From the NCBI GenBank assembly GCA_964019135.1, contig OZ025257.1, positions 40,813,798 through 40,877,797 on the forward strand: a DNA stretch of 64,000 nucleotides. Reading direction: 5' to 3'. Positions 1-47,484 of the stretch are shown in pieces. A program made the position numbers and the translations under genes. Below the pieces are notes generated by a model. That model was not told the DNA's origin. It saw only the letters and a program-made list of their open reading frames with translations, and ran no database searches. The stretch's first letter is position 1. Every line of letters starts with the position of its first letter. The DNA comes from Arenicola marina (Eukaryota > Annelida > Polychaeta > Arenicolidae).

Positions 1-3000
1 ATCATTCACATTTCACGATGCCACTGATATCTTGTACATCATTCACATTTCACGATGCCACTGATATCTTGTACACCATTCACATTTCACGATGCCACTG
101 ATATCTTGTACATCATTCACATTTCACGATGCCACTGATATCTTGTACATCATTCACAGTTCACGATGCCACTGATATCTTGTACATCATTCACATTTCA
201 CGATGCCACTGATATCTTGTACATCATTCACATTTCACGATGCCACTGATATCTTGTACATCATTCACATTTCACGATGCCACTGATATCTTGTACATCA
301 TTCACAGTTCACGATGCCACTGATATCTTGTACATCATTCACATTTCACGATGCCACTGATATCTTGTACATCATTCACATTTCACGATGCCACTGATAT
401 CTTGTACATCATTCACAGTTCACGATGCCACTGATATCTTGTACATCATTCACATTTCACGATGCCACTGATATCTTGTACATCATTCACATTTCACGAT
501 GCCACTGATATATTGTACATCATTCACATTTCACGATGCCACTGATATCTTGTACATCATTCACATTTCACGATGCCACTGATATCTTGTACATCATTCA
601 CATTTCACGATGCCACTGATATCTTGTACACCATTCACATTTCACGATGCCACTGATATCTTATACATCATTCACAGTTCGCGATGCCACTGATATCTTG
701 TACACCATTCACATTTCACGATGCCACTGATATCTTGTACACCATTCACATTTCACGATGCCACTGATATCTTGTACATCATTCACAGTTCACGATGCCA
801 CTGATATCTTGTACATCATTCACAGTTCACGATGCCACTGATATCTTGTACATCATTCACAGTTCACGATGCCACTGATATCTTGTACATCATTCACATT
901 TCACGATGCCACTGATATCTTGTACATCATTCACAGTTCACGATGCCACTGATATCTTGTACATCATTCACAGTTCACGATGCCACTGATATCTTATACA
1001 TCATTCACAGTTCACGATGCCACTGGTATCTTGTACATCATTCACAGTTCACGATGCCACTGATATCTTGTACATCATTCACAGTTCACGATGCCACTGA
1101 TATCTTATACATCATTCACAGTTCGCGATGCCACTGATATCTTGTACACCATTCACATTTCACGATGCCACTGATATCTTGTACACCATTCACAGTTCAC
1201 GATGCCACTGATATCTTATACATCATTCACAGTTCACGATGCCACTGATATCTTGTACACCATTCACATTTCACGATGCCACTGATATCTTGTACATCAT
1301 TCACATTTCACGATGCCACTGATATCTTGTACATCATTCACAGTTCACGATGCCACTGATATCTTGTACATCATTCACAGTTCACGATGCCACTGATATC
1401 TTGTACATCATTCACAGTTCACGATGCCACTGATATCTTATACATCATTCACAGTTCGCGATGCCACTGATATCTTGTACACCATTCACATTTCACGATG
1501 CCACTGATATCTTGTACACCATTCACATTTCACGATGCCACTGATATCTTGTACATCATTCACAGTTCACGATGCCACTGATATCTTGTACATCATTCAC
1601 AGTTCACGATGCCACTGATATCTTGTACATCATTCACAGTTCACGATGCCACTGATATCTTGTACATCATTCACATTTCACGATGCCACTGATATCTTGT
1701 ACATCATTCACAGTTCACGATGCCACTGATATCTTGTACATCATTCACAGTTCACGATGCCACTGATATCTTATACATCATTCACAGTTCACGATGCCAC
1801 TGGTATCTTGTACATCATTCACATTTCACGATGCCACTGATATCTTGTACATCATTCACATTTCACGATGCCACTGAAATCTTGTACATCATTCACATTT
1901 CACGATGTCACTGATATCTTGTACATCATTCACAGTTCACGATGCCACTGATATCTTGTACATCATTCACAGTTCACGATGCCACTGATATCTTGTACAT
2001 CATTCACATTTCACGATGCCACTGATATCTTGTACATCATTCACATTTCACGATGCCACTGATATCTTGTACATCATTCACATTTCACGATGCCACTGAT
2101 ATCTTGTACATCATTCACAGTTCACGATGCCACTGATATCTTGTACATCATTCACAGTTCACGATGCCACTGATATCTTGTACATCATTCACAGTTCACG
2201 ATGCCACTGATATCTTGTACATCATTCACATTTCACGATGCCACTGATATCTTGTACATCATTCACAGTTCACGATGCCACTGATATCTTGTACATCATT
2301 CACAGTTCACGATGCCACTGATATCTTGTACATCATTCACAGTTCACGATGCCACTGATATCTTGTACATCATTCACAGTTCACGACGCCACTGATATCT
2401 TGTACATCATTCACATTTCACGATGCCACTGATATCTTGTACATCATTCACATTTCACGATGCCACTGATATCTTGTACATCATTCACATTTCACGATGC
2501 CACTGATATCTTGTACATCATTCACAGTTCACGATGCCACTGATATCTTGTACATCATTCACAGTTCACGATGCCACTGATATCTTGTACATCATTCACA
2601 TTTCACGATGCCACTGATATCTTGTACATCATTCACAGTTCACGATGCCACTGATATCTTGTACATCATTCACAGTTCACGATGCCACTGAAATCTTGTA
2701 CATCATTCACATTTCACGATGTCACTGATATCTTGTACATCATTCACATTTCACGATGCCACTGATATCTTGTACATCATTCACATTTCACGATGCCACT
2801 GATATCTTGTACATCATTCACAGTTCACGATGCCACTGATATCTTGTACATCATTCACAGTTCACGATGCCACTGATATCTTGTACATCATTCACAGTTC
2901 ACGATGCCACTGATACCTTGTACATCATTCACATTTCACGATGCCACTGATATCTTGTACATCATTCACATTTCACGATGCCACTGATATCTTGTACACC

Positions 3001-4933
3001 ATTCACATTTCACGATGCCACTGATATCTTGTACATCATTCACATTTCACGATGCCACTGATATCTTGTACATCATTCACAGTTCACGATGCCACTGATA
3101 TCTTGTACATCATTCACATTTCACGATGCCACTGATATCTTGTACATCATTCACATTTCACGATGCCACTGATATCTTGTACATCATTCACATTTCACGA
3201 TGCCACTGATATCTTGTACATCATTCACAGTTCACGATGCCACTGATATCTTGTACATCATTCACATTTCACGATGCCACTGATATCTTGTACATCATTC
3301 ACAGTTCACGATGCCACTGGTATCTTGTACATCATTCACATTTCACGATGCCACTGATATCTTGTACATCATTCACATTTCACGATGCCACTGATATCTT
3401 GTACATCATTCACATTTCACGATGCCACTGATATCTTGTACATCATTCACAGTTCACGATGCCACTGATATCTTGTACATCATTCACAGTTCACGATGCC
3501 ACTGATATCTTGTACATCATTCACAGTTCACGATGCCACTGATATCTTGTACATCATTCACATTTCACGATGCCACTGATATCTTGTACATCATTCACAT
3601 TTCACGATGCCACTGATATCTTGTACATCATTCACATTTCACGATGCCACTGATATCTTGTACATCATTCACAGTTCACGATGCCACTGATATCTTGTAC
3701 ATCATTCACAGTTCACGATGCCACTGATATCTTGTACATCATTCACAGTTCACGATGCCACTGATATCTTGTACATCATTCACATTTCACGATGCCACTG
3801 ATATCTTGTACATCATTCACAGTTCACGATGCCACTGATATCTTGTACATCATTCACAGTTCACGATGCCACTGATATCTTGTACATCATTCACAGTTCA
3901 CGATGCCACTGATATCTTGTACATCATTCACATTTCACGATGCCACTGATATCTTGTACATCATTCACAGTTCACGATGCCACTGATATCTTGTACATCA
4001 TTCACATTTCACGATGCCACTGATATCTTGTACATCATTCACAGTTCACGATGCCACTGATATCTTGTACATCATTCACATTTCACGATGCCACTGATAT
4101 CTTGTACATCATTCACAGTTCACGATGCCACTGATATCTTGTACATCATTCACATTTCACGATGCCACTGATATCTTGTACATCATTCACATTTCACGAT
4201 GCCACTGATATCTTGTACATCATTCACATTTCACGATGCCACTGATATCTTGTACATCATTCACAGTTCACGATGCCACTGATATCTTGTACATCATTCA
4301 CAGTTCACGATGCCACTGATATCTTGTACATCATTCACAGTTCACGATGCCACTAATATCTTGTACATCATTCACAGTTCACGATGCCACTGATATCTTG
4401 TACATCATTCACATTTCACCATGCCACTGATATCTTGTACATCATTCACAGTTCACGATGCCACTGATATCTTGTACATCATTCACATTTCACGATGCCA
4501 CTGATATCTTGTACACCATTCACATTTCACGATGCCACTGATATCTTGTACATCATTCACAGTTCACGATGCCACTGATATCTTATACATCATTCACAGT
4601 TCACGATGCCACTAATATCTTGTACATCATTCACAGTTCACGATGCCACTGATATCTTGTACATCATTCACATTTCACGATGCCACTGATATCTTGTACA
4701 TCATTCACAGTTCACGATGCCACTGATATCTTGTACATCATTCACATTTCACGATGCCACTGATATCTTGTACATCATTCACATTTCACGATGCCACTGA
4801 AATCTTGTACATCATTCACATTTCACGATGCCACTGATATCTTGTACATCATTCACATTTCACGATGCCACTGATATCTTGTACATCATTCACATTTCAC
4901 GATGCCACTGATATCTTGTTTCACTACACTCAC
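1..4933. repeat. 37-bp minisatellite, about 133 copies, CTNNBL1 intron 15
   Basis: The tract is a head-to-tail 37-bp unit (plus-strand core CACGATGCCACTGATATC) running off the left edge. Two main variants alternate irregularly, with CATTTCACG or CAGTTCACG, plus rare changes such as ACACC for ACATC and TTATAC for TTGTAC. The right end merges with the donor of CTNNBL1 exon 15. On the minus strand the exon end and donor read GGCATCATGAGAGGTGAGTG, and the repeat reads GGCATCGTGAAATGTGAATG. The unit at the junction is 40 bp rather than 37. The short ORFs inside the tract are by-products of the repeat. Confidence 0.97.
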
Positions 4934-7900
4934 CTCTCATGATGCCCTTGATGGTCAGTTTGGAGCCGCCTCTCATGTTCAATATCTGCATTACTCGCTG
5001 CTTGATCTATAAAGAAATATAAACACTGTGATACACAGAAGTTAACACAAAGAAAGTACGATTGTTCATATGAGTTTTTATCCCAGATTGCACAGGCTTC
5101 AGCATACTGTTTAATACAAGGTGCCAATTACAGCATTGGATTACAGCAGAACGAACGTAAATGTACTGACGTGAGGACAAATATGGAGGCACCCTTGTAT
5201 TATTCATTATAAACGCCCCCCTCCCGCCCCACCCACCATATAGCAGAGATACCTTCCAGGATACCCCATACTTACCCCTGAGGGTCCGGAGTGGCTGATT
5301 TCCAGCATGATGTAGTCTATGAGCTGTAGTGTGAAAAGTCCGGCGTCCAGGCGCTGAATGTAGAACTGGTCCTCCACCGCCTCGTCCACGTCGCTGCCGG
5401 ACATCTTGAGCTCCTGAAACATAACATATATATAACTTTCATATCCTTAAAACCGCCGTTCAGTTGTAAGGCGTAGCGGTTTGTAGGCCCGGGGAAGCCG
5501 GCCATCGGAGTGCCGTAGAACCGCCGCTGTGTGTTCATGCAGTGTACAGTATCAGGCCCCGGCAGGCCGACCATCGGACTACCGTAGAACCGCCGCTGCG
5601 TGTTGATGCAGTGTACAGTTCAGGCCGGCCGCCTGAGTACCGTAGAGCCGCCAGTGCGTACGAAAGCGTTTCTATAAATAGCCAGACAGCAGGAGTCCTG
5701 CAACGGCACGCATGAAAACGCAACCGCGGTTTTACGGTACTCTAGGTCTGGCGGTTAAAGGGCATAGCACGGACGTCTTTGTCTGGAAACATACATCATA
5801 ACTGACAAGTATATCTCGCCAGTACTTAGGTCATATTACATGGTTTCCTTCAGCTCTTCGCTGTTAACACATAAACCCTTAATATATTTAGTTTCTGAAT
5901 AATTACCTACTTGCACTTTATGGCTGATCAATATAAAACGGATTCTTTCAGCTCCTGAAACATATATCATAATTGACAAATCTATAATGAGCCGTACGCT
6001 TACCTGTTTGGCGCGTTGTATTCGCTCATTAGCCACCTGTACTTTAGACAAGTACTTAAAATGCATTTCCATGAGCCGCTCAACCTGAAAATAATTACAC
6101 ATACTTGCAGCTCCACAGGCATACATGAATGTCAAAATTCCCAAATATTTGTCTGTAGTACATTTTCTTTGGAATACAGTTGTAATATATCATTACTACA
6201 TTACGTTTCTTCTAGGAGAGATGCAAAACAGTTCACCATTCCTGGAGCCGGTTATGAAATGAGTAACTGTATTCGTGTAATGATAACAGTTATTGAATCA
6301 ATATATCATTATATTCGACAGCCCCTTAACAATGGTACTTATTATTAAACTCTGCAGTCGCTGATGGCCAGGCAGTGAAACCATGGAAACCAACCTTCTC
6401 GTGGTCGTTCTCCTCAAACTTGTGGAGGAGCCGCTGTCTTTGTGTGCCAGAACAGTTCCGGACCATGGCGGATATCACGGACACGATATGTTCTGGAACA
6501 CAGCCAAACGGACGTGACAGGATACAGCGTAAAACTGAGACGCGGAAGATATATAGATACGTTGCACACAAAATATTCTAAGACAAACTGCACGCAAGAG
6601 ATACTAAGATACGTTGTATGCAAGAGATACTAAAATGCATTGCACGCAAGAGATACTAAAATGCATTGCACGCAAGAGATACTAAGATACATTGTATGCA
6701 AGAGATACTAAAATGCATCGCCCGCAAGAGATACTAAGATACATTGTACGCAAGAGATACTAAGATACATTGTACGCCAGAGATACTAAGATACATTGTA
6801 TGCAAGAGATGCTAAAACACATTGTATGCAAGAGATACTAAAATGCATTGCACGCAAGAGATACTAAGATACATTGTTTGCAAGAGATACTAAGATACAT
6901 TGTACGCAAGAGATGCTAAGATACATTGTACGCAAGAGATGCTAAAACACATTGTATACAAGAGATACTAAAATGCCTTGCACGCAAGAGATACTAAGAT
7001 ACATTGTATGCAAGAGATACTAAGATATATTGTACGCAAGAGATGCTAAAACACATTGTATGCAAGAGATACTAAAATGCATTGCACGCAAGAGATACTA
7101 AGATACATTGTATGCAAGAGATAATAAAATGCATTGCACGCAAGAGATACTAAGATATATTGCACGCAAGAGATACTAAGATACATTGTACGCAAGAGAT
7201 ACTAAGAAACATTGCACGCGAAATATACAAACATACATTGCACGCGAAAGAATTACTAAGATACACTGAACACAAAAGATATTAAGATACCTTGCACACA
7301 AAAATTACGTTTCACTCAAAATACAATACAAAGATAATGATTGCATTTATTTAAAACATCATTTCACCCAGAAGTTACAACCATAATGATAGCATTTACT
7401 AACAAAATAATTTCACCCAGAAAGTATAAAGATAATTTTTTATACGGTTGTGATGTGGTTTTATAAAGTGACAAGATGAATAGAACATACCTATACCAAC
7501 CACACAGATGAGGCTTTAGGTGATTTGACTGCACATGAGCATACCCTTCCAAACCGTCTAGCCATGCCGCACCCTTCACCGCGGGGATGGGGAAATCGCC
7601 GTTCCTATACGCCCACCGCCCCCCCCCCCGCTGCCTGGTCCTATATTGTCTAATGCCTACACCGTGAGGTGGGAGAGGTGGGGTGGGTGCGCTGTCTGCA
7701 CACATCCCCTCCAAACTGCCTAGTCCTATATTGTCTCACCCCTACATCGTCGGACGGGGTGGGGTGGGACAGCCGCTATTTGCACACATACCTTCCAAAC
7801 TCTCTCCCGACGACCCCACTTTCTTGGGTGCCTTTGGCGTCTTCATGAAGCTTGGGAAGACGTTGCGCAGTCCGAGGACCTCGACAAACTTCTGGCAGTT

Positions 7901-10900
7901 GTCTGCGCCCTCCGGACCCATCATGGCATGGTTCAACACCTTCACGGCGCTGAACCGGGACATCTTCTTCTCCCTGCGAATAGCCAGACATTAAACGACG
8001 TTATTAAAGGCACCTCACACAAACCTTGATCCCGATTCTTTATGGATCCTGAATACTGAATCACGTCCAGGACAATATCAAGGTCATTATAAGAAAGGGG
8101 ACCGGGGGGGCTCAAAGATGGCAGAGACTCTGCACGGGTACGATGGTTGCAACATCTCACTTCAGTACTGACCTTAGCATGAGATTCATGAGCTGCACAC
8201 CCTCTCCCTTGAGGAAACGCGCCCGGTTCCCACTCGACATCAATGACGAACACAGGCAATCAAACAGATTCTCCATGAACTCAATTTCTTCGCTGTTGCT
8301 CGGGTCATGTCGCTTGTACGCCTGAGAGATTAAGAGGATAACAATTAGCCCATTATAATATCATGTTTTTTTTTGTTTCGTGTACTTTCATACGGAGAAA
8401 GAACTTAAAACATATATATCCCTAAATCGGCCGTTGCGTTGAAACGCGCGGCTGTTCGCAGCCCCGGTAGGGAGGCCACCGGAGTGCCCTAGAACCGCCG
8501 TTGCGTGTTCATGAGTTGCGCATTCCCAGGCCCCGAGAGGGGGGCCGGCCGCCTGAGTACCCTAGAACCGTCCGTGCGTGCTAAAGCGTTTTTCTAAATA
8601 GCCCAGCGGCCGGTCTCTGGGTCCTGTGCATGCACACCCCATGAACACGCAACGGCGGTTCTACGGTTGTCTAGGTATGAGAGACTGCACACCGCATCAA
8701 CACGCAACGGCGGTTCTACGGTTGTCTAGGTATGAGAGACTGCACACCGCATGAACACGCAACGGCGGTTCTACGGTTGTCTAGGTCTGAGAGACTGCAC
8801 ACCGCATCAACACGCAACGGTGGTCAGACGGTAGTCTAGGTCTGGCGGTTTAATTAATATAACCAAAGTAAAATATAAGTTAGAGTTTGCCCAACGCAAC
8901 CTGCTGCAAGACACTCCGACCCATAAAATAACAGATTACTCACCGCTAGCTGCTGCAGGATCACATCGATCCCGTCCATATCGCCGACTAGCTTGCGATT
9001 TTCTGTAAAGATACGCATGAAACATCTTGGTGTCATTTCACTAAGATCTTGTAACTTTTGGTCGTAAAAAATCAAATTGTATTTCAGCCTCCAAGAGAAG
9101 TGCAAAATGTTGAATTTATCATAAATAAGTGGCACACATATTTTTGAAAACTAAGTGCGGAAAATAAATTGCATGAAGAGGCTAATTTTCGCTGACCGTA
9201 AAATTACGATTTGTCGCTCTAAGATTAGCATGTAACAGATACGGTTACCAGCTCGTAACTCTTAGTGAAATGATCTGCCGCTGATCTTTGAATGTAAGAT
9301 ACTTCGTGGCCAGTATTATTACTATGACTTTTGGAACATTGCACTAATTGACTCGATGAAAGATAGGGGACCCACCAATGCCTGCTTTCTTATTTTGGGA
9401 GACATGAATTTGTCTTCTAGGCAGGTTTTGTGCCCAAACTGGGCATGCCCCATCCTTTAGCTTATGGGGATCACTACAGGGAGGTCCCCATCTTATTTCG
9501 GAATAAAAGAGATATTATTTCACTCAAGGAAGATGGACCACTAAATGGTTGCCCTAGCATTTTGGACTAGAATAGCGATCTTGCCACTGATAGATAAATA
9601 AGCACTAAATGCCCTGGCATTTTTCAAATACAAATGTCATCATTCCACTACATGAATGATAAGAACCAACCAATGCGTGTCCTCATATTGTGGAATGAAA
9701 TAGTCACCATTTCAACCAGGAAGATAAATAACCAATAAAATGCTTACCTTCATGGTTCTGAAGTAGGATTGCCAGAATTTCACTGCAGTACAACTTGTTG
9801 GCGTCAAATGGCATCTTCGCCTATTAATAAGAGAAGGTGACATCAACGGGTTTAATTGATTGGTTGGTTGATTTGCGACTGGGGACAATTTAATCTAAGG
9901 TCATATCCTGTCAATGGAAAGGTTTAAGAATGGAGCCCCCCCCCCCTTCCTTCATCCTCTATTCTTTTTGAAGAAGGACATGGGATCTTTATCCTGCATG
10001 AAAATAGACACTGGCGCTCGACTAAGAGGTCACTCGACCAAACCGGCCGCGCTAACCACCAGACATTGCGGGTGGTCCCCGAACTCCGGGACAACGGCTG
10101 GCCTGGCAGAGCTCACTTGACCAAGCCGAAACACTAACCACTTCTATTCGGATGGACCCTCAACGGGTTTTAATGAACGGGAGCACACAAAATTGGGTGG
10201 TTGCATACACAACGGAAGAAATAAATAATATCTCTGTTGAGAGGAAGTACATCATCATCAAACATACTTACATTAACAGGATTTGACATTAACAACTGTT
10301 AAAGTTATCTATGACAAAAATCATGACAGAAACAGATCAAAAACTAGCGTGTTTCTCCCACACCGCTCGGATACCACCACGATCTATTCAGGGAACATCG
10401 CCATAAACCATTTAAAAAGACAAGTAAACGTGGCCAGCACAAGCTTCAGTTTTAAAAAGGCGCGGCTGGTGGGCTACCTTCATTCGCTTGAAGAGCCAGG
10501 GCATGAACCCCTGCTGTGCAGCCTCCACCCCGACGTCAGGCCGCAGCTCCATCATGTTTTCGACGATGGCTGCAACAGAACAGAAGACGCTTCCATCACG
10601 CTTATGGACGGTCTGTGGCGGATCTCACGAACGTAGTTTAGCCGACCACGGGGCTTAATTAGTCGACTGAATTTACCAGGTAAATGATGGTCGATTTTAG
10701 CTGACGGAGCCCTGCAGCCCGCTAAACTATGTACGTGGAATAGGCGACAGGAGTCTTCGGAGTTACAAACATCACATATCAAAGCATTTATATTCAATAG
10801 TCACCATAGCGATTCGTGATATCTATAGCATAGGATCCCACTTTAGTAACTTAGAGGGAGTCTTAATGCGACTTGTGTGGTAAACTATATACACGTATTT

Positions 10901-13900
10901 GTCTAGGCGCGAGGAAAGGATCATTAGCGGTGTAACTACGATTGCGGGAATAAATACATGATCATTTAACAAGGAGAAGACTTACCCAGCGTCACTTAAC
11001 ACGGATACAGGAGACTCACCCAGCGTCACTTAACACGGATACAGGAGACTCACCCAGTGTCACTCAACACGGATACAGGAGACTCACCCAGCGTCACTTA
11101 ACACGGATACAGGAGACTTACCCAGCGTCACTTAACACGGATACAGGAGACTCACCCAGTGTCACTTAACACGGATACAGGAGACTTACCCAGTGTCACT
11201 CAACACGGACACAGGAGATTTACCCAGCGTCACTTAACACGGATACAGGAGACTTACCCAGCGTCACTTAACACGGATACAGGAGACTTACCCAGCGTCA
11301 CTTAACACGGATACAGGAGACTTACCCAGCGTCACTTAACACGGACACAGGAGACTCACCCAGCGTCACTTAACACGGATACAGGAGACTTACCCAGCGT
11401 CACTTAACACGGATACACGAGACTTACCCAGTGTCACTCAACACGGATACAGGAGACTTACCCAGTGTCACTTAACACGGATACAAGAGACTCACCCGTC
11501 GTCACTTAATACGGACACACGAGACTTACCCAGTGTCACTTAACACGGACACAGGAGATTTACCCAGCGTCACTTAACACGGATACAGGAGACTTACCCA
11601 GCGTCACTTAACACGGATACAAGAGACTCACCCGTCGTCACTTAATACGGACACACGAGACTTACCCAGTGTCACTTAACACGGACACAGGAGACTTACC
11701 CAGCGTCACTTAACACGGATACAAGAGACTCACCCGTCGTCACTTAATACGGACACACGAGACTTACCCAGTGTCACTTAACACGGACACAGGAGATTTA
11801 CCCAGCGTCACTTAACACGGATACAGGAGACTTACCCAGCGTCACTTAACACGGATACAAGAGACTCACCCGTCGTCACTTAATACGGACACACGAGACT
11901 TACCCAGTGTCACTTAACACGGATACAGGAGACTTACCCAGTGTCACTTAACACGGATACAAGAGACTCACCCAGCGTCACTTAACACGGACACAGGAGA
12001 CTTACCCAGTGTCACTTAACACGGATACAGGAGACTCACCCAGTGTCACTTAACACGGACACAGGAGACTCACCCAGTGTCACTTAACACGGACACAGGA
12101 GACTTACCCAGTGTCACTTAACACGGATACAGGAGACTCACCCAGTGTCACTTAACACGGACACAGGAGACTCACCCAGTGTCACTTAACACGGATACAG
12201 GAGACTCACCCAGTGTCACTTAACACGGACACAGGAGACTCACCCAGTGTCACTTAACACGGATACAGGAGACTTACCCAGCGTCACTTAATACGGACAC
12301 ACGAGACTCACCCAGCGTCACTTAACACGGATACAGCAGACTTACCCAGCGTCACTTAACACGGATACAAGAGACTCACCCGTCGTCACTTAATACGGAC
12401 ACACGAGACTCACCCAGCGTCACTTAACACGGATACAGGAGACTTACCCAGCGTCACTTAACACGGACACAGGAGACTCACCCAGCGTCACTTAACACGG
12501 ACACAGGAGACTTACCCAGCGTCACTTAACACGGATACAGGAGACTTACCCAGCGTCACTTAACACGGACACACGAGACTTACCCAGTGTCACTTAACAC
12601 GGATACAGGAGACTTACCCAGCGTCACTTAACACGGATACAGGAGACTTACCCAGTGTCACTTAACACGGATACAGGAGACTCACCCGTCGTCACTTAAC
12701 ACGGACACACGAGACTTACCCAGTGTCACTTAACACGGATACAGGAGACTTACCCAGCGTCACTTAACACGGATACAGGAGACTTACCCAGCGTCACTTA
12801 ACACGGATACAAGAGACTCACCCGTCGTCACTTAATACGGACACACGAGACTTACCCAGTGTCACTTAACACGGATACAGGAGACTTACCCAGCGTCACT
12901 TAACACGGACACAGGAGACTCACCCAGCGTCACTTAACACGGATACAAGAGACTCACCCGTCGTCACTTAATACGGACACACGAGACTTACCCAGTGTCA
13001 CTTAACACGGATACAGGAGACTTACCCAGCGTCACTTAACACGGACACAGGAGACTCACCCAGCGTCACTTAACACGGACACACGAGACTTACCCAGCGT
13101 CACTTAACACGGATACAGGAGACTTACCCAGCGTCACTTAACACGGACACAGGAGACTCACCCAGCGTCACTTAACACGGACACAGGAGACTTACCCAGC
13201 GTCACTTAACACGGATACAGGAGACTTACCCAGCGTCACTTAACACGGACACACGAGACTTACCCAGCGTCACTTAACACGGATACAGGAGACTCACCCG
13301 TCGTCACTTAATACGGACACACGAGACTTACCCAGTGTCACTTAACACGGACACAGGAGACTTACCCAGCGTCACTTAACACGGATACAGGAGACTTACC
13401 CAGCGTCACTTAACACGGATACAGGAGATTTACCCAGCGTCACTTAACACGGATACAGGAGACTCACCCGTCGTCACTTAATACGGACACACGAGACTTA
13501 CCCAGTGTCACTTAACACGGATACAGGAGACTCACCCAGTGTCACTTCACACGGACACAGGAGACTTACCCAGTGTCACTTCACACGGACACAGGAGACT
13601 TACCCAGCGTCACTTAACACGGATACAGGAGACTTACCCAGCGTCACTTAACACGGATACAGGAGACTTACCCAGTGTCACTTAACACGGGCACAGGAGA
13701 CTTACCCAGCGTCACTTAACACGGACACAGGAGACTCACCCAGTGTCACTTAACACGGATACGGGAGACTCACCCAGCGTCACTTAACACGGATACAGGA
13801 GACTTACCCAGTGTCACTTAACACGGATACAGGAGACTTACCCAGCGTCACTTAACACGGACACAGGAGACACCCAGCGTCACTTAACACGGACACAGGA

Positions 13901-16900
13901 GACTTACCCAGCGTCACTTAACACGGATACAGGAGACTTACCCAGCGTCACTTAACACGGATACAGGAGACTTACCCAGCGTCACTTAACACGGATACAG
14001 GAGACTTACCCAGCGTCACTTAACACGGATACAGGAGACTCACCCAGTGTCACTCAACACGGATACAGGAGACTTACTCAGTGTCACTTAACACGGATAC
14101 AGCAGACTTACCCAGTGTCACTCAACACGGATACAGGAGACTCACCCAGTGTCACTTAACACGGACACACGAGACTTACCCAGTGTCACTCAACACGGAT
14201 ACAGGAGACTCACCCAGTGTCACTTAACACGGACACACGAGACTTACCCAGCGTCACTTAACACGGATACAGGAGACTTACCCAGCGTCACTTAACACGG
14301 ATGCAGGAGACTTACCCAGCGTCGCTTAACACGGATACAGGAGACTCACCCAGCGTCACTTAACACGGACACAGGAGACTTACCCAGCGTCACTTAACAC
14401 GGATACAGGAGACTTACCCAGCGTCACTTAACACGGATGCAGGAGACTTACCCAGCGTCGCTTAACACGGATACAGGAGACTTACCCAGCGTCACTTAAC
14501 ACGGATACAGGAGACTTACCCAGCGTCACTTAACACGGATACAGGAGACTTACCCAGCGTCAATTAACACGGATACAGGAGACTTACCCAGCGTCACTTA
14601 ACACGGATACACGAGACTCACCCAGTGTCACTCAACACGGATACAGGAGACTTACCCAGTGTCACTCAACCCGGATACAGGAGACTTACCCAGTGTCACT
14701 TAACACGGACACACGAGACTCACCCAGTGTCACTCAACACGGATACAGCAGACTTACCCAGTGTCACTCAACACGGTTACAAGAGACTTACCCAGCGTCA
14801 CTTAACACGGATACAGGAGACTCACCCAGTGTCACTTAACACGGACACACGAGACTCACCCAGTGTCACTCAACACGGATACAGCAGACTTACCCAGTGT
14901 CACTCAACACGGTTACAAGAGACTTACCCAGCGTCACTTAACACGGATACAGGAGACTCACCCAGTGTCACTTAACACGGACACACGAGACTCACTCAGT
15001 GTCACTCAACACGGATACAGGAGACTCACCCAGCGTCACTTAACACGGATACAGGAGACTTACCCAGTGTCACTCAACACGGATACAGGAGACTCACCCA
15101 GTGTCACTGAACACGGACACACGAGACTTACCCAGTGTCACTTAACACGGACACAGGAGACTCACCCAGCGTCACTTAACACGGACACAGGAGACTTACC
15201 CAGTGTCACTTAACACGGACACAGGAGACTTACCCAGCGTCACTTAACACGGACACAGGAGACTTACCCAGCGTCACTTAACACGGACACAGGAGATTTA
15301 CCCAGCGTCACTTAATACGGACACACGAGACTTACCCAGTGTCACTTAACACGGACACACGAGACTCACCCAGCGTCACTTAATACGGACACACGAGACT
15401 TACCCAGCGTCACTTAACACGGATACAGGAGACTTACCCAGCGTCACTTAACACGGATACAGGAGACTTACCCAGCGTCACTTAACACGGATACAGGAGA
15501 CTTACCCAGCGTCACTTAACACGGATACAGGAGACTTACCCAGCGTCACTTAACACGGATACAGGAGACTTACCCAGCGTCACTTAATACGGACACACGA
15601 GACTTACCCAGCGTCACTTAACACGGATACAGGAGACTTACCCAGCGTCACTTAACACGGATACAGGAGACTTACCCAGCGTCACTTAACACGGACACAG
15701 GAGACTCACCCAGCGTCACGTAACACGGATACAGGAGACTTACCCAGCGTCACTTAACACGGACACACGAGACTTACCCAGTGTCACTTAACACGGATAC
15801 AGGAGACTCACCCAGCGTCACTTAATACGGACACACGAGACTTACCCAGCGTCATTTACACGGACACACGAGACTTACCCAGTGTCACTTAACACGGATA
15901 CAGGAGACTTACCCAGCGTCACTTAACACGGATACAGGAGACTTACCCAGCGTCACTTAACACGGATACAGGAGACTTACCCAGTGTCACTTAACACGGA
16001 TACAGGAGACTTACCCAGCGTCACTTAACACGGATACAGGAGACTTACCCAGCGTCACTTAACACGGACACACGAGACTTACCCAGTGTCACTTAACACG
16101 GATACAGGAGACTTACCCAGCGTCACTTAACACGGATACAGGAGACTTACCCAGCGTCACTTAACACGGACACAGGAGACTCACCCAGCGTCACTTAACA
16201 CGGATACAGGAGACTTACCCAGCGTCACTTAATACGGACACACGAGACTTACCCAGTGTCACTTAACACGGATACAGGAGACTCACCCAGCGTCACTTAA
16301 CACGGACACACGAGATTTACCCAGCGTCACTTAACACGGATACAGGAGACTTACCCAGCGTCACTTAACACGGATACAGGAGACTTACCCAGCGTCACTT
16401 AACACGGATACAGGAGACTTACCCAGCGTCACTTAACACGGACACACGAGACTTACCCAGTGTCACTTAACACGGATACAGGAGACTTACCCAGCGTCAC
16501 TTAACACGGATACAGGAGACTTACCCAGCGTCACTTAACACGGACACAGGAGACTCACCCAGCGTCACTTAACACGGATACAGGAGACTCACCCAGCGTC
16601 ACTTAATACGGACACACGAGACTTACCCAGTGTCACTTAACACGGATACAGGAGACTCACCCAGCGTCACTTAACACGGACACACGAGACTTACCCAGCG
16701 TCACTTAACACGGACACACGAGACTTACCCAGTGTCACTTAACACGGATACAGGAGACTTACCCAGCGTCACTTAACACGGATACAGGAGACTTACCCAG
16801 CGTCACTTAATACGGACACACGAGACTTACCCAGTGTCACTTAACACGGATACAGGAGACTCACCCAGCGTCACTTAACACGGACACAAGAGACTTACCC

Positions 16901-19900
16901 AGCGTCACTTAACACGGATACAGGAGACTTACCCAGCGTCACTTAACACGGATACAGGAGACTTACCCAGCGTCACTTAACACGGATACAGGAGACTCAC
17001 CCAGCGTCACTTAACACGGATACAGGAGACTTACCCAGCGTCACTTAACACGGACACAGGAGACTTACCCAGCGTCACTTAACACGGATACAGGAGACTC
17101 ACCCAGCGTCACTTAACACGGACACACGAGACTTACCCAGCGTCACTTAACACGGACACACGAGACTTACCCAGCGTCATTTACACGGACACACGAGACT
17201 TACCCAGTGTCACTTAACACGGATACAGGAGACTTACCCAGCGTCACTTAACACGGATACAGGAGACTTACCCAGCGTCACTTAACACGGATACAGGAGA
17301 CTTACCCAGCGTCACTTAACACGGATACAGGAGACTCACCCAGTGTCACTTAACACGGATACAGGAGACTTACCCAGCGTCACTTAACACGGACACACGA
17401 GACTTACCCAGTGTCACTTAACACGGATACAGGAGACTTACCCAGCGTCACTTAACACGGATACAGGAGACTTACCCAGCGTCACTTAACACGGACACAG
17501 GAGACTCACCCAGTGTCACTTAACACGGATACAGGAGACTTACCCAGCGTCACTTAACACGGACACAGGAGACTCACCCAGTGTCACTTAATACGGATAC
17601 AGGAGACTTACCCAGTGTCACTCAACACGGATACAGGAGACTCACCCAGTGTCACTTAACACGGACACACGAGACTTACCCAGTGTCACTTAACACGGAC
17701 ACAGGAGACTCACCCAGTGTCACTTAACACGGATACAGGAGACTTACCCAGCGTCACTTAACACGGATACAGGAGACTCACCCAGTGTCACTCAACACGG
17801 ACACAGGAGACTTACCCAGCGTCACTTAAAACACGGACACAGGAGACTTACGCAGTGTCACTTAACACGGATACAGGAGACTTACCCAGCGTCACTTAAC
17901 ACGGATACAGGAGACTTACCCAGCGTCACTTAACACGGATACAGGAGACTTACCCAGCGTCACTTAACACGGACACAGGAGACTCACCCAGTGTCACTTA
18001 ACACGGACACAGGAGACTCACCCAGTGTCACTTAATACGGACACACGAGACTTACCCAGTGTCACTTAACACGGATACAGGAGACTTACCCAGTGTCACT
18101 TAACACGGATACAGGAGACTTACCCGGTGTCACTTAACACGGATACAGGAGACTTACCCAGCGTCATGTGGACTCCGGACGCCTCCTCCTTGACACTCTC
18201 ATCCAGACGTTCTAGGTTCTGGACCAGCTGAGCCATGACCTGACCCTCCATCTGGAGAAGGGATGGTATGAGCACCCAAACCAAGCAAAGTCAAGGCTGC
18301 TAACTTAGGACAGCGTATATAGAAACGTATTCGGCTAATCCTGATATAACATAGAATGTAAGCTTGGGATTCAATAACTTCACCGCAAGGTAAGTTCAAG
18401 ACAAGGACGAGGTATTCAGTAGGCAACTATAAATCCGTGTATACATCACATCCCGCTGTCTAGTAACTCTTATAAAGTCTTATTATCTTGTTAAACATAA
18501 GACATAGGCACGATGTGGCTCAATGACATATTGGTGCTCTAGGCCACTTCTGTGCACATAAAGGCTAAGTTGAGCTAAGAAGTCGCCTGTTTTTAATGAA
18601 ATGGGGTTGGATGAAACTTGCCTAAGATGTGGGTGATAGGGTTCGAACCCACGACCTATTGATCTGCAGCTCAGCCTGCTTACCAACTGAGCTAGGGAGG
18701 CTGCCCCACGCTGGGGTGCGAACCCCTGAACTCATGGTACGATGGCTGGCCTGGCAGAGTTATTGTGACAAAACCGAGGGCGCTACCCACCAGCTCATTA
18801 GGATTGTCTTACCAAAGTGTCAATGAGGACATTTGCACCATCGTCTGTGTCGCTGTCAACATCTGTCATCTCCTGCAGCAAATCCACCACTGCTATGGAA
18901 ATATCTGAAAGCAAAGACAACATTTTGCGAAATACTTCTTCGGCTAGATGCCCATGAACCACCCGACGTCAACATTTTTCACAGCCTGCACACTCCAACA
19001 ACGTTGTTTGATGTCATAAACCACTTTTTTCGTTGACAATTAAATAATCTATGAGAAATACATTCCTGCAGTAATTGCCAAATAGACCAAATACTTGCAG
19101 TGGTGACTTTCCCCACAAGTCATACCTGTGTTGTCGTGGTTAAGGAGCTGAAGCAAGGATTGCACAGCGTTTAACTCTGTCAGGATGTGATATAAATCTG
19201 GAACAGTGGCTACAACATGCATTTCCTGGATGACTTCATTTAGCTCAACTTCAGATTCCATGAATCTGAAATGAAACGAAAAAAAAAGACCTTGTAACCT
19301 TAATCAAACATATTTTGTGGTAGATAAGTTACAGCACTTTCCAGACTGCAAGAAAAGAGCCAGAGCTGCATCAAGGACTTTGAAGCTGATTGTGATTGCA
19401 AATAAACGATGTGAGGTGACGTTATGACAGTCCATTATAGTGTCATTTGAATGTGTTATGATACTTGACGTAAACTGCCAGGGCATCCCATCCTCGGTCT
19501 GGCAGAACAGAAGTCGCACAACGCAAGGACCACAGTACTTACTTTTCTGGCATGTCTGGATATTTAATTCTCATCTCTTGGTTTCTGTATACTTTCTTCT
19601 CAAAGTTCAGTATCATTTTTTTTAGGCCGGTTTCATCTAGCACATCATCCTGTAAGAGAGAGTTCAGTTTAAAGCAACCAGTTTGTGGAAGGCAAAAAAC
19701 TCTTTTCTCTATTTACTTTAACTGATGTAGCTCTTGGGATGAGCTTGTCCAAGATAATTTGCTCAGGAGAACATAAATATTGGAAGGATCCAGTATGCAG
19801 TAAAGAAACTTCAGGAAGCAAGCAGCAGTATTTTTCTAAGAACATGTATGTGGTGGAATATATATGAAAACCTATGAAGCAATAAAACAGACCAATTGGC

Positions 19901-23772: not shown

Positions 23773-24184
23773 ATTAAAGTTACCTGTCGAGCTCTTTCCC
23801 GCCAAAACTAATGCGGTCCAAATACAAATAAGAATCATTCCTTTGAATCATTCAAGATTTCTTTTGTCCATACTCAACTCATGCCAGACTGCCAAATATA
23901 GTGTCTCTTAGCCTTGCCGGTGGTATCAATTTACCACAAGTTTTCATATTAGTGGTAAACGTCATGAGTTTGTGTGCTTCGCGATGCTTTGGTATAAGTA
24001 CCAGTGCCGCGACACAGTTCTGTGGTGTCTGGGGATAGACACGTTTGCCACACCACAGCCGAAACGGCGATGTTTATCAGGTTTCAGAATTTATAGAATG
24101 AAACATTCGAGTTTTCTGAAAACTTTGATATAAATTTCGCCTGGGCTTAGTTTTGGCGGGAAAGAACTCGACATGCAACTTTAA
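23773..24184. mobile_element. Foldback element in the CTNNBL1-MTBP intergenic region
   Basis: The left arm holds GTCGAGCTCTTTCCCGCC, and the right arm holds its inverse GGCGGGAAAGAACTCGAC. About 38 bp pair with few mismatches across a 335-bp interior. No ORF of note is seen. Confidence 0.6.
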
Positions 24185-24466
24185 GTGTCTGTGGCCCGAA
24201 GCGTCCGTGGACCGCCCTCTTTCATTGGAAAATTATGCAACTACCCACCCCGGGGGGTCGGTGGAGGATAGTTAATATGTTGGTTTTGGGAGGGCTCCGC
24301 GGCAAAACAAAGCACCCCATTTTTCACCTCCAAAAGCAGCTCACAAGGGATAGTTCACCTCTTAAATCCGCTAGGAAGGGACATCTTCCTTTCCATTGAT
24401 TTGCGTCATATGTCGCCCCTCCATGCAGCCCCGCTCGGTTTGATTTCCCTGCAAACCTGCTCTAGC

Positions 24467-25034
24467 TGTGGACGCAAGTCACGGGCGGATCTAGGAATTT
24501 GAAGAGGGTGGGGTTTAGCAGTCCTTAACATCCCCTTGGTTGAAGAGGGGGTGCCCTCCTTGGATCCGCTACTGATTGCAAGTCAGAGTCTCGCGCCTTC
24601 CACCCCTTTGCCCCGGTTGCAACTTTTAAAATATCAGTTGAACAATGTCGCTCTATAGCCTATAATATTGCGGTATCTTTTTCATCACAACTATCCACTC
24701 CCTCATTCACCGAGGGGCACTCAGGGAACCCCGCCAGATTTGTATGACATTTGTGGACGCAAGTCACGGGCGGATCTAGGAATTTGAAGAGGGTGGGGTT
24801 TAGCAGTCCTTAACATCCCCTTGGTTGAAGAGGGGGTGCCCTCCTTGGATCCGCTACTGATTGCAAGTCAGAGTCTCGCGCCTTCCACCCCTTTGCCCCG
24901 GTTGCAACTTTTAAAATATCAGTTGAACAATGTCGCTCTATAGCCTATAATATTGCGGTATCTTTTTCATCACAACTATCTACTCCCTCATTCACCGAGG
25001 GGCACTCAGGGAACCCCGCCAGATTTGTATGACA
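24467..25034. repeat. Tandem duplication of 285 bp upstream of MTBP, carrying a short hAT-like MITE
   Basis: Positions 24467-24750 recur at 24752-25034 with about one difference (CCACTCC against CTACTCC). Each copy holds a GGGCGGATCTAGG...GGATCCGCT element (24482-24577 in copy 1) flanked by the 8-bp direct repeat GCAAGTCA (24474-24481 and 24578-24585), the target-site size of hAT transposons. Confidence 0.85.
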
Positions 25035-25306
25035 GTGCAACCCTCCCTCCACCCCCCCCCCCCCACCCCACTCCCCCTTCCATTCCTTCTCCACCGCCCC
25101 TTGGTTCAACCAGAGATCGTTCAACCCCGGTTTTCTGCTCTAAGATAGGAAAGATGTTAGCGCCATCTACTGGGAGATCGCGACGATGCGAGGTACCCAT
25201 TTCTGATACACAAGGTAAATAATCGCAGATTGCTGGCGGGAGAAGCAAAACAGCAAAAGGCGAGGGCAATCCACTGATCAACAATACTTGTGGAAGTTTC
25301 ATCAAC

Positions 25307-28300: not shown

Positions 28301-31300
28301 CATGCAGCTCTATTGTGTATTGGTGGAGAAGACTTGGCAATTACGGTATTTCTATTTTGATCTTAACCTGTAGACTTAAAGTTAATTAATCTTATGATAT
28401 CCCGTTCAATGTTGAGCATTAATAGCATTGTTATGGAAGCAATTTTTATAAATGTATATCTGAAGTGTTATTTAAGTCTAGATTTCATAAATAATTAAAA
28501 AAGAAAACTTACCTGACTTAAAATTTATTGTAATTTATTGATGATTTATGGAGTATATGAAATACTTGCTATTATCAGGCTGATGAATCCAATTCAATAT
28601 CATGGACTGATATTTCTGAGGGCAATGAAGCAGAGATATGCAATGCAGTGTACTGCGGGATAAGCAGGTGTGGAGATTTTGACAACATTAATATTATGTT
28701 TGCAATTGTGTGTACTTGGCATAGATCTATGTCAATTACATGATTACATTAAATGCTTTCAACAGCATACCAGATTGATTTAACAATACATGCATACTTG
28801 TTTGCTTTGATATCATGCCACCAGCAATGCCAGTAGAATGCAATAGCTACACTGGAGCCCTGAACAAGACTCGATCATTTTTATCAGGAAAACTATGTAA
28901 CTTCCATAATGTATATATACATGTACAAACACATACTACCCCTAATTATGCAACTCCTGAAGACTCTGGTTACCTTTACATGCATTTATTTATATTTCAG
29001 TGACCATACTGTCTCCATGGCCTCCTGCCTTCATGAACTGGCAGACAGCTTACCTTTTATTGGTATGTTCATAGAATTTTTTTACATGAGATTGAGTGAA
29101 TGAATGTCATCAATTGTGTCACCACAATAACCACTTTTTGTGATAGTCAGTGTATTGTTTTACCCTAGACTAGCCCTACCCAGCTTTTTCTGTTGTTTAG
29201 CCTATAGCATTATGTCTGTGCAACTTTTTTTACTGCATGAATTGACAGGTGCGACAGTTGATGTCTTGTGGATTGCTGAAGAGAACACGTTGCAAGAAAT
29301 TGGGTTAGTGCAACAAAAATAATTTGATTGATGAATAAAGGGAAAAAAGATTCAATAACATAATTCTTGGAGCTGTATAATAGATCTAGAGTCTATACGC
29401 ATAAATTGAGAAGTTAATATGTCAATACAATGCAGTACAAGATACAGTATGTGTACTATGGTAACTATACTATGGTATACTATGGTAAATGTACCATGGT
29501 ATACTATGGTAAATGTACCATAGTATATTATGGTAAATGTACCATGGTATACTATGCTAAATGTACCATGGTATATTATGATAAATGTACCATGATACAA
29601 TAAGCACACTATTTGAAATGGTATACCATAGTACCTTTACCATGGTACATTTACCCTAGTAAACTTTCATATGGGGAAATCTGTGTTTTGCTTTTTCAAG
29701 CGACAACTTGGAGCTGTTCGGGGCACTGAAGAGGTTGGTAGAGTGGAATGCGGCCGCCATCACTTACCACGTGACCAGTGGCGAGCAGGCGCAGAGCCGT
29801 ACTCTCCAGTCATGGGTCGACGTCCTGCGAGCACGTGTTGTCGCTGCCACGTGGTCCGCTAAGCAGCCCTCTGATTGGCCACCGCTGTGGAGAGGACACG
29901 TGGCGATGGCAGGAAATGAGGTACCGTACGGGTTAACACGTGAAAATCATTCCAACATGTCCACTCTTCTTGGAGGAAATTTGTACTTATCTTGATAGGA
30001 TTCTAGAAGGATAACAATCCTAATACCGGGCGATGCACGCTGTCGCCCTCGGTGCTATACTCATTTAACGCGTCGTGACCCTCTGCAATCTCCCGCCATG
30101 ATGTTGATTATCGTGGTAAATGTTAGACGTGAGCAATATGTGAGCTATGCTCAAGCAGTATTCATGAGCATACTAAATGTTGGACTTGGGCAATGTGTGA
30201 GATATATTCAAGCAATGTTCATGAGCACGGCGAAGAACGGCCCTAGTGGGCGATTTGTGTTCTATTTTATACATTTTATACACAGTCGGGACTTCGTGTC
30301 TCAATTCTTTGAGTCTTATATATAGTCTCTCGCAATCGTGAACAGATCAGTTATTTGTCCAGGTCCATTGAAAGCCGCGATGCACGTAGCCTATCGGACA
30401 GATGCTTTGACGCAGGTTCCATGCAAAGAGACGAACATGTGCATTAAGGTATCTGAGTCGGCGTGTATTTATTATCACGTCATCTTCTGGAGTCCTTGTC
30501 TATGATGGCCTTATGTCCTTATCTATGATGACATTGGTGTGGGACCGCTGCTGACGGTGAAGGTATATTGCTGACAGAATATGAAGGCCACACGTCTCTG
30601 CGGGTTCGAGTTGCACGGCGTCGCCGCCAGGGAGGACGCTATTGGCGTCCACGTGGGCCCCGTGGTTCAAGACGGAAGAGAATGGAAACCGATGCCTCCA
30701 CCCGCCGACCCGGACGTCTACAGTCACGTGAGTTCGTGTCATCAATGTCCTAATTTTTATGGTCCCGGATTGGTTCATGTCGCCTCCGTAGCTCCGTTTA
30801 TAAAGCGCTTGAGCTTCAGACGAACCGATCCTGGTTTGATTCTGCATCTGGCGGTGGGGCCACTATCACTGATCTCATTGTGGGGGTGGGGCCACTATCA
30901 CTGATCTCATTGCGGGGGTGGGGCCACTATCACTGATCTCATTGTGGGGGTGGGGCCACTATCACTGATCTCATTGTGGGGGTGGGGCCGTCTTCATCCA
31001 ATGTCCAGAAGAGTCCATGGCTTTCTCTGTTGAATCATCAAATTTGAACATTTATTGCACCGCTCTGCCAGATGGTTGGTTGGTTACTCAGGACGCTTCA
31101 ACCACTTTTGGTCATATCGCGTCAATGGGACAAGGAAGGGAGAGTGGAGCCATGTCCCCGGGGGTAACCCCCTACTCTTTACGAAGAAAGACATGGGATC
31201 TGTATTCTTCTTATATTGGCTTCTTATATTGTAGTCTTTTTGTTTGTTCCAGCTTTCCAACAGAGTTCTGTCGAGACACCTCGAGCTGCTAGCGGAGTTG

Positions 31301-34300
31301 GACATCCGTGATATCCCTGCATTCTACATCAAGAACTGTCGCTCAAAACTGTATCCTTATGCGTATCATCATCTAACTATCCAGGCACCATGTATACCAA
31401 TCAATTTACTCCTTAATTTAATTTAATTCTTTTTATTTATTACCGGCGAATGGAGCATGACATTTAAATACTACGGTAGAAAAATCATATCGTATGGACC
31501 ATGGTTCCAGCTGATAAAGTGGAAATGTCTCACTTCGCCGTTGGCTGCACCGCTCTGACATGTGCCATAGAATGATCGGACATGTCCTAGAACGATCTGA
31601 CATTTGTCAGAACGCTCTGACATTTGTCATAGAACGAGCTGACATTTGTCATAGAACGCTCTGACATGTGTCCTACAACGCTCTGATGGGTTATAGAACG
31701 CTCTGACAGATCATAGAACGCTCTGATGGGTCATAGAACGCTCTGACAGGTCATAGAATGCTCTGACAGGTCATAGAACGCTCTGACAGGTCATAGAACG
31801 CTCTGACAGGTCATAGAACGCATGTGTCAGAATACTGTAAAATGCCGCAAAACGCTCTGACAAGTGTCATTGAACGCTCTGTAGAATGCCACAGAGAGGT
31901 GTCACAGAAAAACAACGTGGACTCCTTGACACCAGCCAGCGTCATCCCGACGGAGAGTAGACTGGTGAAGCGGTCCAGAGCCTTCCTGACACACCTAGAG
32001 GACCACCCCTGGGTCAGTGGCACGGGCCAAGCCTAGCGCCACGGCCGCTGTTGTCGTGTTGCTGTTATTGTGGTTCTGTTCTAACTATAGACGGTGATAA
32101 AATGCTTCATTTTGTTCAATGGTTTATGATGGCAAGCCGGTTAGAAAACAAGAATATCTGAATATCTTAAGGAAAATTGCTAATCAATGCCTAGTACAAG
32201 ACAAGCTATAGGATTGTAATATGAGTATTGCCCTTATAATATGGTTATTACTGTTGTAATATGATCATTACTGTTGTAATATGATCATTAATGTTGTAAT
32301 ATGATCATTACTGTTGTAATATGATCATTACTGTTGTAAGGTAGTTGTTACCTTATAACTTGGTTCTTACTGCTATAAGTTTGTGGTTACTGTAGTTATG
32401 TTGAACATACTTGTGACTCTCATTGCCTCTCCCTTGCACGTCACAGTTGGGGTACCTGGTGCGACTCGACTACGGCAGTGCCTGGTCTCTGGTCGAAAAC
32501 GAGGCTCTGGTGAAGGACAAGGAGAGTCAGGAGCTGAAGGGATGGGACGACCTGGTCAGCCAAGATGTCTCCAACATACTGAGTACGTCTATCTAATGGG
32601 CATTACACTGGTCGCCAACATACCGAGTACGTCTATCTAATGGGTTCTACACTGGTCGCCAACATACTGAGTACGTCTATCTAATGGGTTCTACACTGGT
32701 CGCCAACATACTGAGTACGTCTATCTAATGGGTTCTACACTGGTCGCCAACATACTGAGTACGTCTATCTAATGGGTTCTACACTGGTCGCCAACATACT
32801 GAGTACGTCTATCTAATGGGTTCTACACTGGTCGCCAACATACTGAGTACGTCTATCTAATGGGTTCTACACTGGTCGCCAACATACTGAGTGCGTCTAT
32901 CTAATGGGTTCTACACTGGTCGCCAACATACTGAGTACGTCTATCTAATTGGTTCTACGCTGGTCTCCAACATACTGAGTACGTCTATCTAATGGGTTCT
33001 ACACTGGTCGCCAACATACTGAGTACGTCTATCTAATGGGTTCTACACTGGTCGCCAACATACTGATTACGTCTATCTAATGGGTTCTACACTGGTCGCC
33101 AACATACTGAGTACGTCTATCTAATGGGTTCTACACTGGTCGCCAACATACTGAGTACGTCTATCTAATGGGTTCTACACTATGGTCTCCAACATACTGA
33201 GTACGTCTATCTAATGGGTTCTACACTGGTCGCCAACATACTGAGTACGTCTATCTAATGGGTTCTACACTGGTCGCCAACATACTGAGTACGTCTATCT
33301 AATGGGTTCTACGCTGGTCTCCAACATACTGAGTACGTCTATCTAATGGGTTCTACACTGGTCGCCAACATACTGAGTACGTCTATCTAATGGGTTCTAC
33401 ACTGGTCGCCAACATACTGAGTACGTCTGTCTAATGGGTTCTACACTGGTCGCCAACATACTGAGTACGTCTATCTAATGGGTTCTACACTATGCTCTCC
33501 AACATACTGAGTACGTCTATCTAATGGGTTCTACACTGATCGCCAACATACTGAGTACGTCTATCTAATGGGTTCTACACTGTGGTCGCCAACATACTGA
33601 GTACGTCTATCCAATGGGTTCTACACTGGTCGCCAACATACTTAGTGCGTCTATCTAATGGGTTCTACACTGGTCGCCAACATACCGAGTACGTCTATCT
33701 AATGGGTTCTACACTGGTCGCCAACATACTGAGTACGTCTATCTAATGGGTTCTACACTGTGGTCTCCAGCATACCGAGTAGGTCTATCTAATGGGTTCT
33801 ACTCTGTGGTCGTCAACATATTGAGTACCCCATGAACCACTCCCGTATAAAATATGTTCCAATGAATAGATTTTGATGGATTATGGATTTGATATTCACA
33901 TATGCCTAAGGAATGAGGAAAAACAAGTAATATTACTATTGCAATTTGTTTCGAGTTCATTCCTGATTTAGCACTGGCTGCCCGGACTATTATATACCGC
34001 CAGGTATGTCTCCTTCCAGACTGTCCCTTTGAAGGCGAGATGAAGGGGGACTTGGGTCAGTATCTCTTCCTGCTCTGTTCGCCCTCCTGTCCCATGGCGG
34101 CCGGTCTGTCCGGGGACGCCGGCGGCCCCGACCCCCTCACCTACTGCTGGGCCTTCGCCGTACGCCAGCCACATGAGATCAGTGGCGCCCCCTTGCTGGA
34201 GACACTGGGCGCGGCGCATGCGCCGTCGACAGCCCATGAGGGGGACAGTGAGGAGCCCGTCGTAGACGATCTGCCGGAGCTGTTGCCCGCGGAGCTGTCC

Positions 34301-47480: not shown

Positions 47481-47484
47481 ACAC

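Follow-up and report, generated by a model that had tools for sequence, protein, structure and literature searches.

The 64,000-nucleotide (nt) stretch of genomic DNA analysed here (the window) carries two genes in its first 41 kb, minus-strand CTNNBL1 and plus-strand MTBP, and three of their introns hold large tandem repeat arrays (A, B and C) that begin at the 5' splice site (donor) of the preceding exon (Table 1). Gene models were assembled from splice-site strings and then checked by Pfam and, for CTNNBL1, by structure match. Exons 1–15 of CTNNBL1 lie within the window, and exon 16 was read by eye in the adjoining stretch L009; MTBP has 19 exons in the window, and the junction set of both genes comprises 33 donors and 32 acceptors. 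CTNNBL1 was identified by the Pfam family CTNNBL (E = 5e-176) and by an alignment with human CTNNBL1 in PDB over nearly the full length (E ~4e-202); its 13 matches in the genome fall at one locus, with no second copy found. MTBP matched the Pfam MTBP_N, mid and C domains. Tandem Repeats Finder (TRF) returned 44 rows for the window, and the only arrays of at least 1 kb within the two genes were A, B and C.

All three arrays arose by tandem duplication of a piece of DNA lying across an exon-intron boundary. The TRF edge of array B lies 9 nt inside the exon and that of C 16 nt inside the exon, while A begins 14 nt into the intron. When each junction (20 exon nt plus 8 intron nt) was slid along the repeat unit, the donor register gave 20 (A), 18 (B) and 24 (C) matches out of 28, compared with 12, 13 and 13 in the best other register. 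Local alignment of the junction was equalled by 0 of 5000 shuffles for both B and C and was weaker for A (119 of 5000); for the exon part alone, as good a score came from 107 of 5000 shuffles for A, 38 for B and 0 for C. Array A extends 1430 bp past the window (L009 8571-10000, in the next 10 kb examined), which brings it to ~172 copies and 6349 bp, and its degenerate last copy, GGCATCATGAGAG, matches the exon-15 tail exactly over 13 nt, at a place where the A consensus has GGCATCGTGAAAT. The registers, the TRF edges and the exon tail kept at the far end of A bear out the claim of the initial annotation that three big arrays begin at donors.

Table 1. Exons, boundary-derived arrays and junction copies in the window
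Feature	Position	Strand	Remarks
CTNNBL1 exon 15	4934..5006	-	donor 4933/4934; gene model, Pfam and PDB match
Array A, 37-bp unit from exon-15 tail and donor	1..4919	-	decoy donors decayed (T/GTGAAT; slash, splice junction)
CTNNBL1 exon 6	18158..18251	-	donor 18157/18158; gene model
Array B, 34-bp unit: GTAAGT donor with the 9 nt of exon 6 before it and the intron head after it	10978..18166	-	
CTNNBL1 exon 7, next after array B	10478..10569	-	gene model
MTBP exon 9	32447..32582	+	donor 32582/32583; gene model, Pfam
Array C, 44-bp unit: GTACGT donor with the ~16 nt of exon 9 before it and the intron head after it	32567..33828	+	
MTBP exon 10, next after array C	34020..34355	+	gene model
CTNNBL1 exon 11, fourth short donor-spanning duplication	7792..7973	-	junction scan
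Second copy of exon-11 donor region, GT lost	7647..7717	-	junction scan
Third, partial copy of exon-11 donor region, GT kept	7530..7554	-	junction scan
Exon-14 acceptor junction copy (17/18 nt), upstream in its intron	5947..5964	-	sole acceptor-type case in window
26-bp array, same intron as exon-11 copies	6547..7301	-	TRF

Counting the exon copy, B contains 211 full copies and C contains 28. Relative to the array consensus, the exon copy is changed at 8 of 37 (A), 4 of 34 (B) and 8 of 44 (C) sites, and the copies within an array are nearly alike; homogenisation acts inside the array and leaves the exon copy as the outlier. No gradient of copy divergence was found along A, B or C (rare variants alone in B gave rho = 0.16, p = 0.02), which lends no support to the earlier proposal that the arrays grew outward from the 5' splice site. 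As had been claimed, the three units show no similarity above chance, with 635, 967 and 264 of 1000 shuffles scoring as well. Microhomology at the far junctions was equalled by 138 of 3000 shuffles for B (beyond the TRF end) and 1112 of 3000 for C. The exact 34-bp unit of B, the one unit searched in this way, had 63 exact matches in the genome, with all listed places inside array B, and none in viral contigs.

The placement of the large arrays at donors would rarely arise by chance, in agreement with the initial annotation. When each array was reduced to a single unit and its position randomised, the three arrays of 1 kb or more all fell at donors with a probability of 1.5e-4, and at least three of the six arrays of at least 250 bp did so with a probability of 0.0013. 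For at least three of all 17 arrays it was 0.04. Half of the window arrays (8 of 16) are closer to a donor than to an acceptor, and the window alone, with A left out, has two arrays straddling donors versus 0.91 expected (P = 0.23). The strong probabilities for big arrays and weak ones for all arrays confine the window signal to large arrays.

Each of the 33 donors and 32 acceptors was also scanned against its own intron, which added the exon-11 and exon-14 cases of Table 1. The exon-11 donor, a case missing from the initial annotation, is followed by two decayed copies of the junction, ~84 and ~246 bp downstream (steps of ~84 and 162 bp). Two further scan hits (0 of 200 shuffles as good in each case) were not borne out as junction copies: the target of the exon-9 donor starts deeper in the intron, and for the exon-M5 acceptor the matches lay within intron sequence only. 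CTNNBL1 intron 11 (window 6547-7791) consists of three different repeats in succession: decayed donor copies, then a 49-bp unit in two copies and then a 26-bp unit in 29 copies.

A count of array edges at donors and acceptors, which the initial annotation had proposed for the whole genome, was run on 31 further stretches (255 kb) around exons of three protein families, all from the single assembly of the one genome that holds the window (867 Mb, 762 contigs). The exon hits listed numbered 182 (77 Myosin_head, 61 Cpn60_TCP1 and 44 Adaptin_N); 118 of them lie in the examined stretches and 116 were used, with two Adaptin_N hits excluded for 5 and 12 internal stops. Kinesin (PF00225, 133 hits) was outside the sample. 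PF00063 and PF00118 were picked before any array of the loci was known, PF01602 after the array list of loci L012-L031 was available, and the edge permutation was also written after that list was known. Arrays had a period of at least 10 and a length of at least 60; 123 were found, covering 80,550 of 255,000 bp, and 119 could be assigned to an exon gap. An array split across neighbouring loci was counted twice at L022/L023 and probably at L027/L028.

Arrays straddled exon 3' sides more often than expected, at 14 versus 6.0 (permutation of the 119 arrays with Pfam hit edges as exon ends, P = 0.0006; rerun, 0.0004), and exon 5' sides at the expected rate (6 versus 6.6, P = 0.70). The 14 donor-side arrays are spread over 13 of the 31 loci. 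When the splice site was refined, 12 of the 14 take in exon nucleotides and the other two, in L028 and L042, start 4 and 8 nt past the donor. Many repeat the donor in the following copies, such as CAG/GTAAGA in L027, AAG/GTAAGA in L041 and CAG/GTCAGT in L014. A similar result came from exact GT-AG introns (41 from the family loci and 32 from the window), with 8 donors straddled versus 2.8 expected (P = 0.005) and 2 acceptors versus 2.8; here a GT-AG model was obtained for 41 of 86 gaps, the remaining 45 being dropped, and the window contributed 14 arrays, with A and two short ones left out.

The donor excess depended on array size. Observed and expected numbers were 7 and 1.71 for arrays of at least 500 bp (P = 0.00015), 6 and 3.01 for those of 200–499 bp (P = 0.03) and 1 and 1.27 below 200 bp, and acceptors showed no excess in any size class. 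Donor-side arrays were also longer than interior ones (median 362 versus 173 bp, p = 0.007). Among the acceptor-side arrays, L018 1-1806 is a clear case, an 81-bp array whose unit contains what by eye is exon-like coding sequence. Several exon hits of ~40–80 amino acids from the three families sit in open frames of 600–1760 codons, perhaps from adjoining stop-free tandem units.

The repeat units of gene regions also tend to carry donors in the sense orientation, a comparison that does not depend on exon edges. Among 133 units (119 from the family loci and 14 from the window), strong donor motifs occurred only in sense in 20 and only in antisense in 4 (p = 0.0015), and at a stricter cut (5) the numbers were 15 and 0. 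Counted per locus, the difference was 15 versus 3 (p = 0.0075), and reversed units, used as a control, gave 6 versus 6. The bias had the same direction in L012-L031 (15 versus 4), L032-L042 (4 versus 0, p = 0.125) and the window units alone (1 versus 0). Among arrays of at least 500 bp it was 10 versus 3 (p = 0.09), and among interior arrays 8 versus 3 (p = 0.23; Wilcoxon p = 0.005). Acceptor motifs gave 4 versus 2, and the non-array sequence of the same loci, real donors included, 145 versus 93. Some of the "interior" arrays with sense donors resemble missed exons; one example is L040 2416-4589, with a unit that by eye is like the end of an AP-2 alpha exon. Genome-wide, three tandem AGGTAAGT occurred 3844 times versus 2525 for the reversed control, a count of copies and not of arrays.

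Within the window, the donors repeated in the downstream copies (decoy donors) range from intact to decayed, and the contrast noted in the initial annotation is real. In B the GT is kept in 210 of 210 downstream copies, the median computed U1 duplex energy (-10.3 kcal/mol) equals that of the authentic donor, and 95% of decoys equal or exceed the median strength of the 33 real donors. C keeps the GT in 26 of 27 copies, with a median equal to its weak authentic donor (-3.9 kcal/mol). The A decoys have decayed to a median of -1.7 kcal/mol, compared with -12.7 kcal/mol for the authentic donor, and the decayed donor is common to all 132 downstream copies examined in the window, which implies that the copies spread after the decay. 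The decayed core of A is invariant (0 minor copies per site versus 3.2 elsewhere). The donor core of B and C was not less variable than the rest of the unit; it was less variable in six of six family-locus arrays, and conservation pooled over eight arrays, B and C included, was not significant (P = 0.20; 0.08 without position +3).

The copies are probably not exonic, since decoys mostly run into stops and few units are multiples of three. When three decoys were tried per array, a stop followed soon after in three of three for B, three of three for C and two of three for A (with 15 modelled exons), and 3 of 17 donor units have a length divisible by 3. The recursive splice site AG/GT is absent from the consensus copies, which read TGG/GT (B), TGA/GT (C) and T/GT (A).

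We give about an even chance to the reading that donors tolerate boundary-spanning duplications and are the places where these preferentially expand or last. After a first duplication the exon-proximal donor would still define the exon, and everything downstream would be intron and spliced out. The duplication would thus be close to neutral at a donor, while at an acceptor a competing AG would arise upstream. The array could then enlarge as minisatellites ordinarily do, by unequal exchange or slippage, with the coding sequence untouched, and candidate steps for retention are tolerance, shelter from deletion at the exon edge, or binding of U1 by the copies. The main cause would be that arrays sheltered at the donor edge grow or are retained preferentially, and not donor-targeted seeding, a preference that follows from the donor excess being limited to larger arrays. 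The absence of an excess below 200 bp and its fourfold size at 500 bp or more speak for growth or retention over the donor-targeted duplication suggested in the initial annotation.

Several results weigh against this reading. In the 11 loci unseen before the test (L032-L042, 14 arrays), donors were straddled 4 times versus 2.4 expected (P = 0.15) and acceptors 3 times versus 1.8 (P = 0.23), with no contrast between them, and the overall excess was carried by the 20 myosin loci L012-L031 (donors 10 versus 3.6, P = 0.001; acceptors 3 versus 4.8). The direct contrast between donors and acceptors is modest (14 versus 6, p = 0.115); including the window raises it to 17 versus 6 (p = 0.035), a figure that adds the arrays that prompted the analysis and counts A by homology. 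Big arrays were not significantly more often donor-sided than small ones in the family loci alone (7 of 35 versus 7 of 84, p = 0.11). If tolerance were the only filter, acceptors should show a deficit, and none was seen. The ~210 strong donors kept by B are hard to call harmless, and the 26-bp array of CTNNBL1 intron 11 is a counter-example, with no match to the junctions of its own intron. The recurrence and donor bias proposed in the initial annotation are supported by the edge excess and the sense-donor bias over the 31 loci, and not significantly by the unseen loci taken separately. The excess is significant only when the already-known loci are included, and the donor bias is an apparent one.

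The same unseen loci favour the least probable of the readings we considered, namely that arrays are so common that some land on donors by chance and a striking window was picked. The very high density of arrays, the weak all-array tests in the window and the even split of its arrays between donors and acceptors are in line with this. The excess over 31 loci is not expected from chance, and neither is the sense-donor bias, which came with a clean reversed control and pointed the same way in the unseen loci. Donor-directed mutation, in which breaks coupled to transcription, R-loops or nascent RNA bound by U1 trigger duplication and further expansion, would explain both the donor excess without an acceptor excess and the sense bias of unit donors, and the transcript G skew is positive in A (+0.388) and B (+0.215). 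However, the skew is negative in C, positive in only 11 of 19 donor-side arrays, and alike in donor and interior arrays (p = 0.73), so there is no support for an R-loop-like signature. The lack of excess among arrays below 200 bp, where seeding should show, the lack of polarity along arrays and the spread of A copies after the decay of their donor also count against donor-directed mutation, which we regard as unlikely.

More doubtful still is a sheltering effect by telescripting, in which sense-donor copies would bind the U1 small nuclear ribonucleoprotein and suppress premature cleavage and polyadenylation, so that long introns survive where donor-free arrays are purged. The size dependence of the donor excess, the sense-only orientation of the strongest donors, the median B decoy matching its authentic donor and the lower variability of the donor core in the six family-locus arrays are consistent with this. 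On the other side, pooled conservation of the donor core was not significant, and A reaches 6.3 kb with decoys that had decayed before the copies spread; poly(A) hexamers in arrays were too few for comparison. We hold as a speculation, of lower probability again, that 5' splice sites may be nurseries of intron growth across a lophotrochozoan genome, where kilobase arrays of sense, U1-competent decoys would let introns lengthen as self-telescripting introns. Returning to tolerated duplications that grow or persist at donors, the arrays would offer introns a concrete way to lengthen, and array B is a natural experiment on splice-site choice, in which an exon is followed by ~210 donors, most as good as its own.

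The initial annotation suggested that the class to which these arrays belong may be known from amphioxus, and two papers confirm this. The name mirages was given to boundary-spanning tandem repeats in amphioxus Adh3, and such repeats are described in the globins BflGb6 and BflGb9, with both boundaries affected (PMC3087553), and in PGBD5 (PMC3902484); TnC and, in references, other genes are also cited there, with Canestro 2002 as the founding report. Judging from these texts, the arrays here resemble mirages in having a minisatellite-like unit that spans the exon-intron boundary, in the many copies that keep splice signals, and in a boundary copy that escapes homogenisation. Both boundaries can be hit in each system, the acceptor cases here being exon 14 and the six straddling family-locus arrays, with no excess over chance. 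Unlike the mirages for which counts are reported there (3 and 6 units in BflGb6 and 2–7 in PGBD5), the arrays here run to hundreds of copies in the largest cases and extend over kilobases. They also differ in the statistical excess at donors, rising with array size, and in their host, since mirages are from a chordate and the present genome is probably not one.

Other known systems share part of this pattern. In the Rogers model of intron gain by tandem genomic duplication, as told in PMC3087553, tandem duplication with splice signals likewise alters gene architecture; the potato RdRp is among the reported cases. In that model the new intron is made from a duplicated part of an exon, whereas here an intron was apparently lengthened; the exons align to human CTNNBL1 without extra junction residues, and no residues are inserted at the junction of exons 6 and 7, which flank array B. 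Ordinary intronic minisatellites, or variable number tandem repeats, are similarly tandem and homogenised with diverged ends, but the units here copy the adjoining exon end and donor, in sense. Unlike dispersed elements of the introner type, the B unit has all its listed exact matches inside array B. Minisatellites in earthworm metallothionein introns are not described as boundary-spanning in the part of PMC12783039 available, and the available parts of two further amphioxus papers (PMC2632668, PMC2206037) mention tandem repeats and no such arrays. Among the matches listed for minisatellites and molluscs, no title reports boundary-spanning arrays in a mollusc. Boundary-spanning arrays as a class are known, and the present ones are set apart by the copy number, the kilobase scale and an apparent, size-dependent donor excess. 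What was an amphioxus curiosity of few genes becomes a process that can be measured, with an apparent donor bias and size dependence, probably in a different phylum.

The muscle myosin exons of the genome scored 395 bits against the solved structure 3i5f, 364 bits against 1dfk and its kin, and 340 bits against Myosin-7. We take 3i5f to be a squid myosin, 1dfk and its kin to be scallop myosins and Myosin-7 to be human. On these matches the host is probably not amphioxus, and our best guess is a lophotrochozoan, mollusc-like animal. The muscle myosin gene (L016 1269-4807 and L017 3732-6634) has four similar exons in what we read as the loop-1/switch-1 region and four in what we read as the start of the SH-helix/converter; we take them as mutually exclusive, and they also entered the argument on the host. 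In the high-numbered contigs C390, C504 and C536, the Kinesin matches contain internal TAA and TAG and no TGA; these contigs are perhaps foreign, from an organism such as a ciliate in which TAA and TAG are sense codons.

Further repeats and genes lie around the two gene models. A large array with a 36-bp unit and ~70 copies is found 3' of CTNNBL1 (L009 3657-6170). Three arrays of more than 1 kb occur in the window outside both genes, at 51815-53218, 56241-57503 and 58639-60948 (units of 22, ~104/210 and 167 bp, respectively), and large arrays are therefore not restricted to donors. Reverse transcriptase fragments (Pfam RVT_1) are present at 50691-51383 (minus strand) and 61298-62152 (plus strand), the second enclosing a run of 200 N at 61428-61627. 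A Toll-like receptor with LRR and TIR domains occupies a single open frame at 47404-49725.

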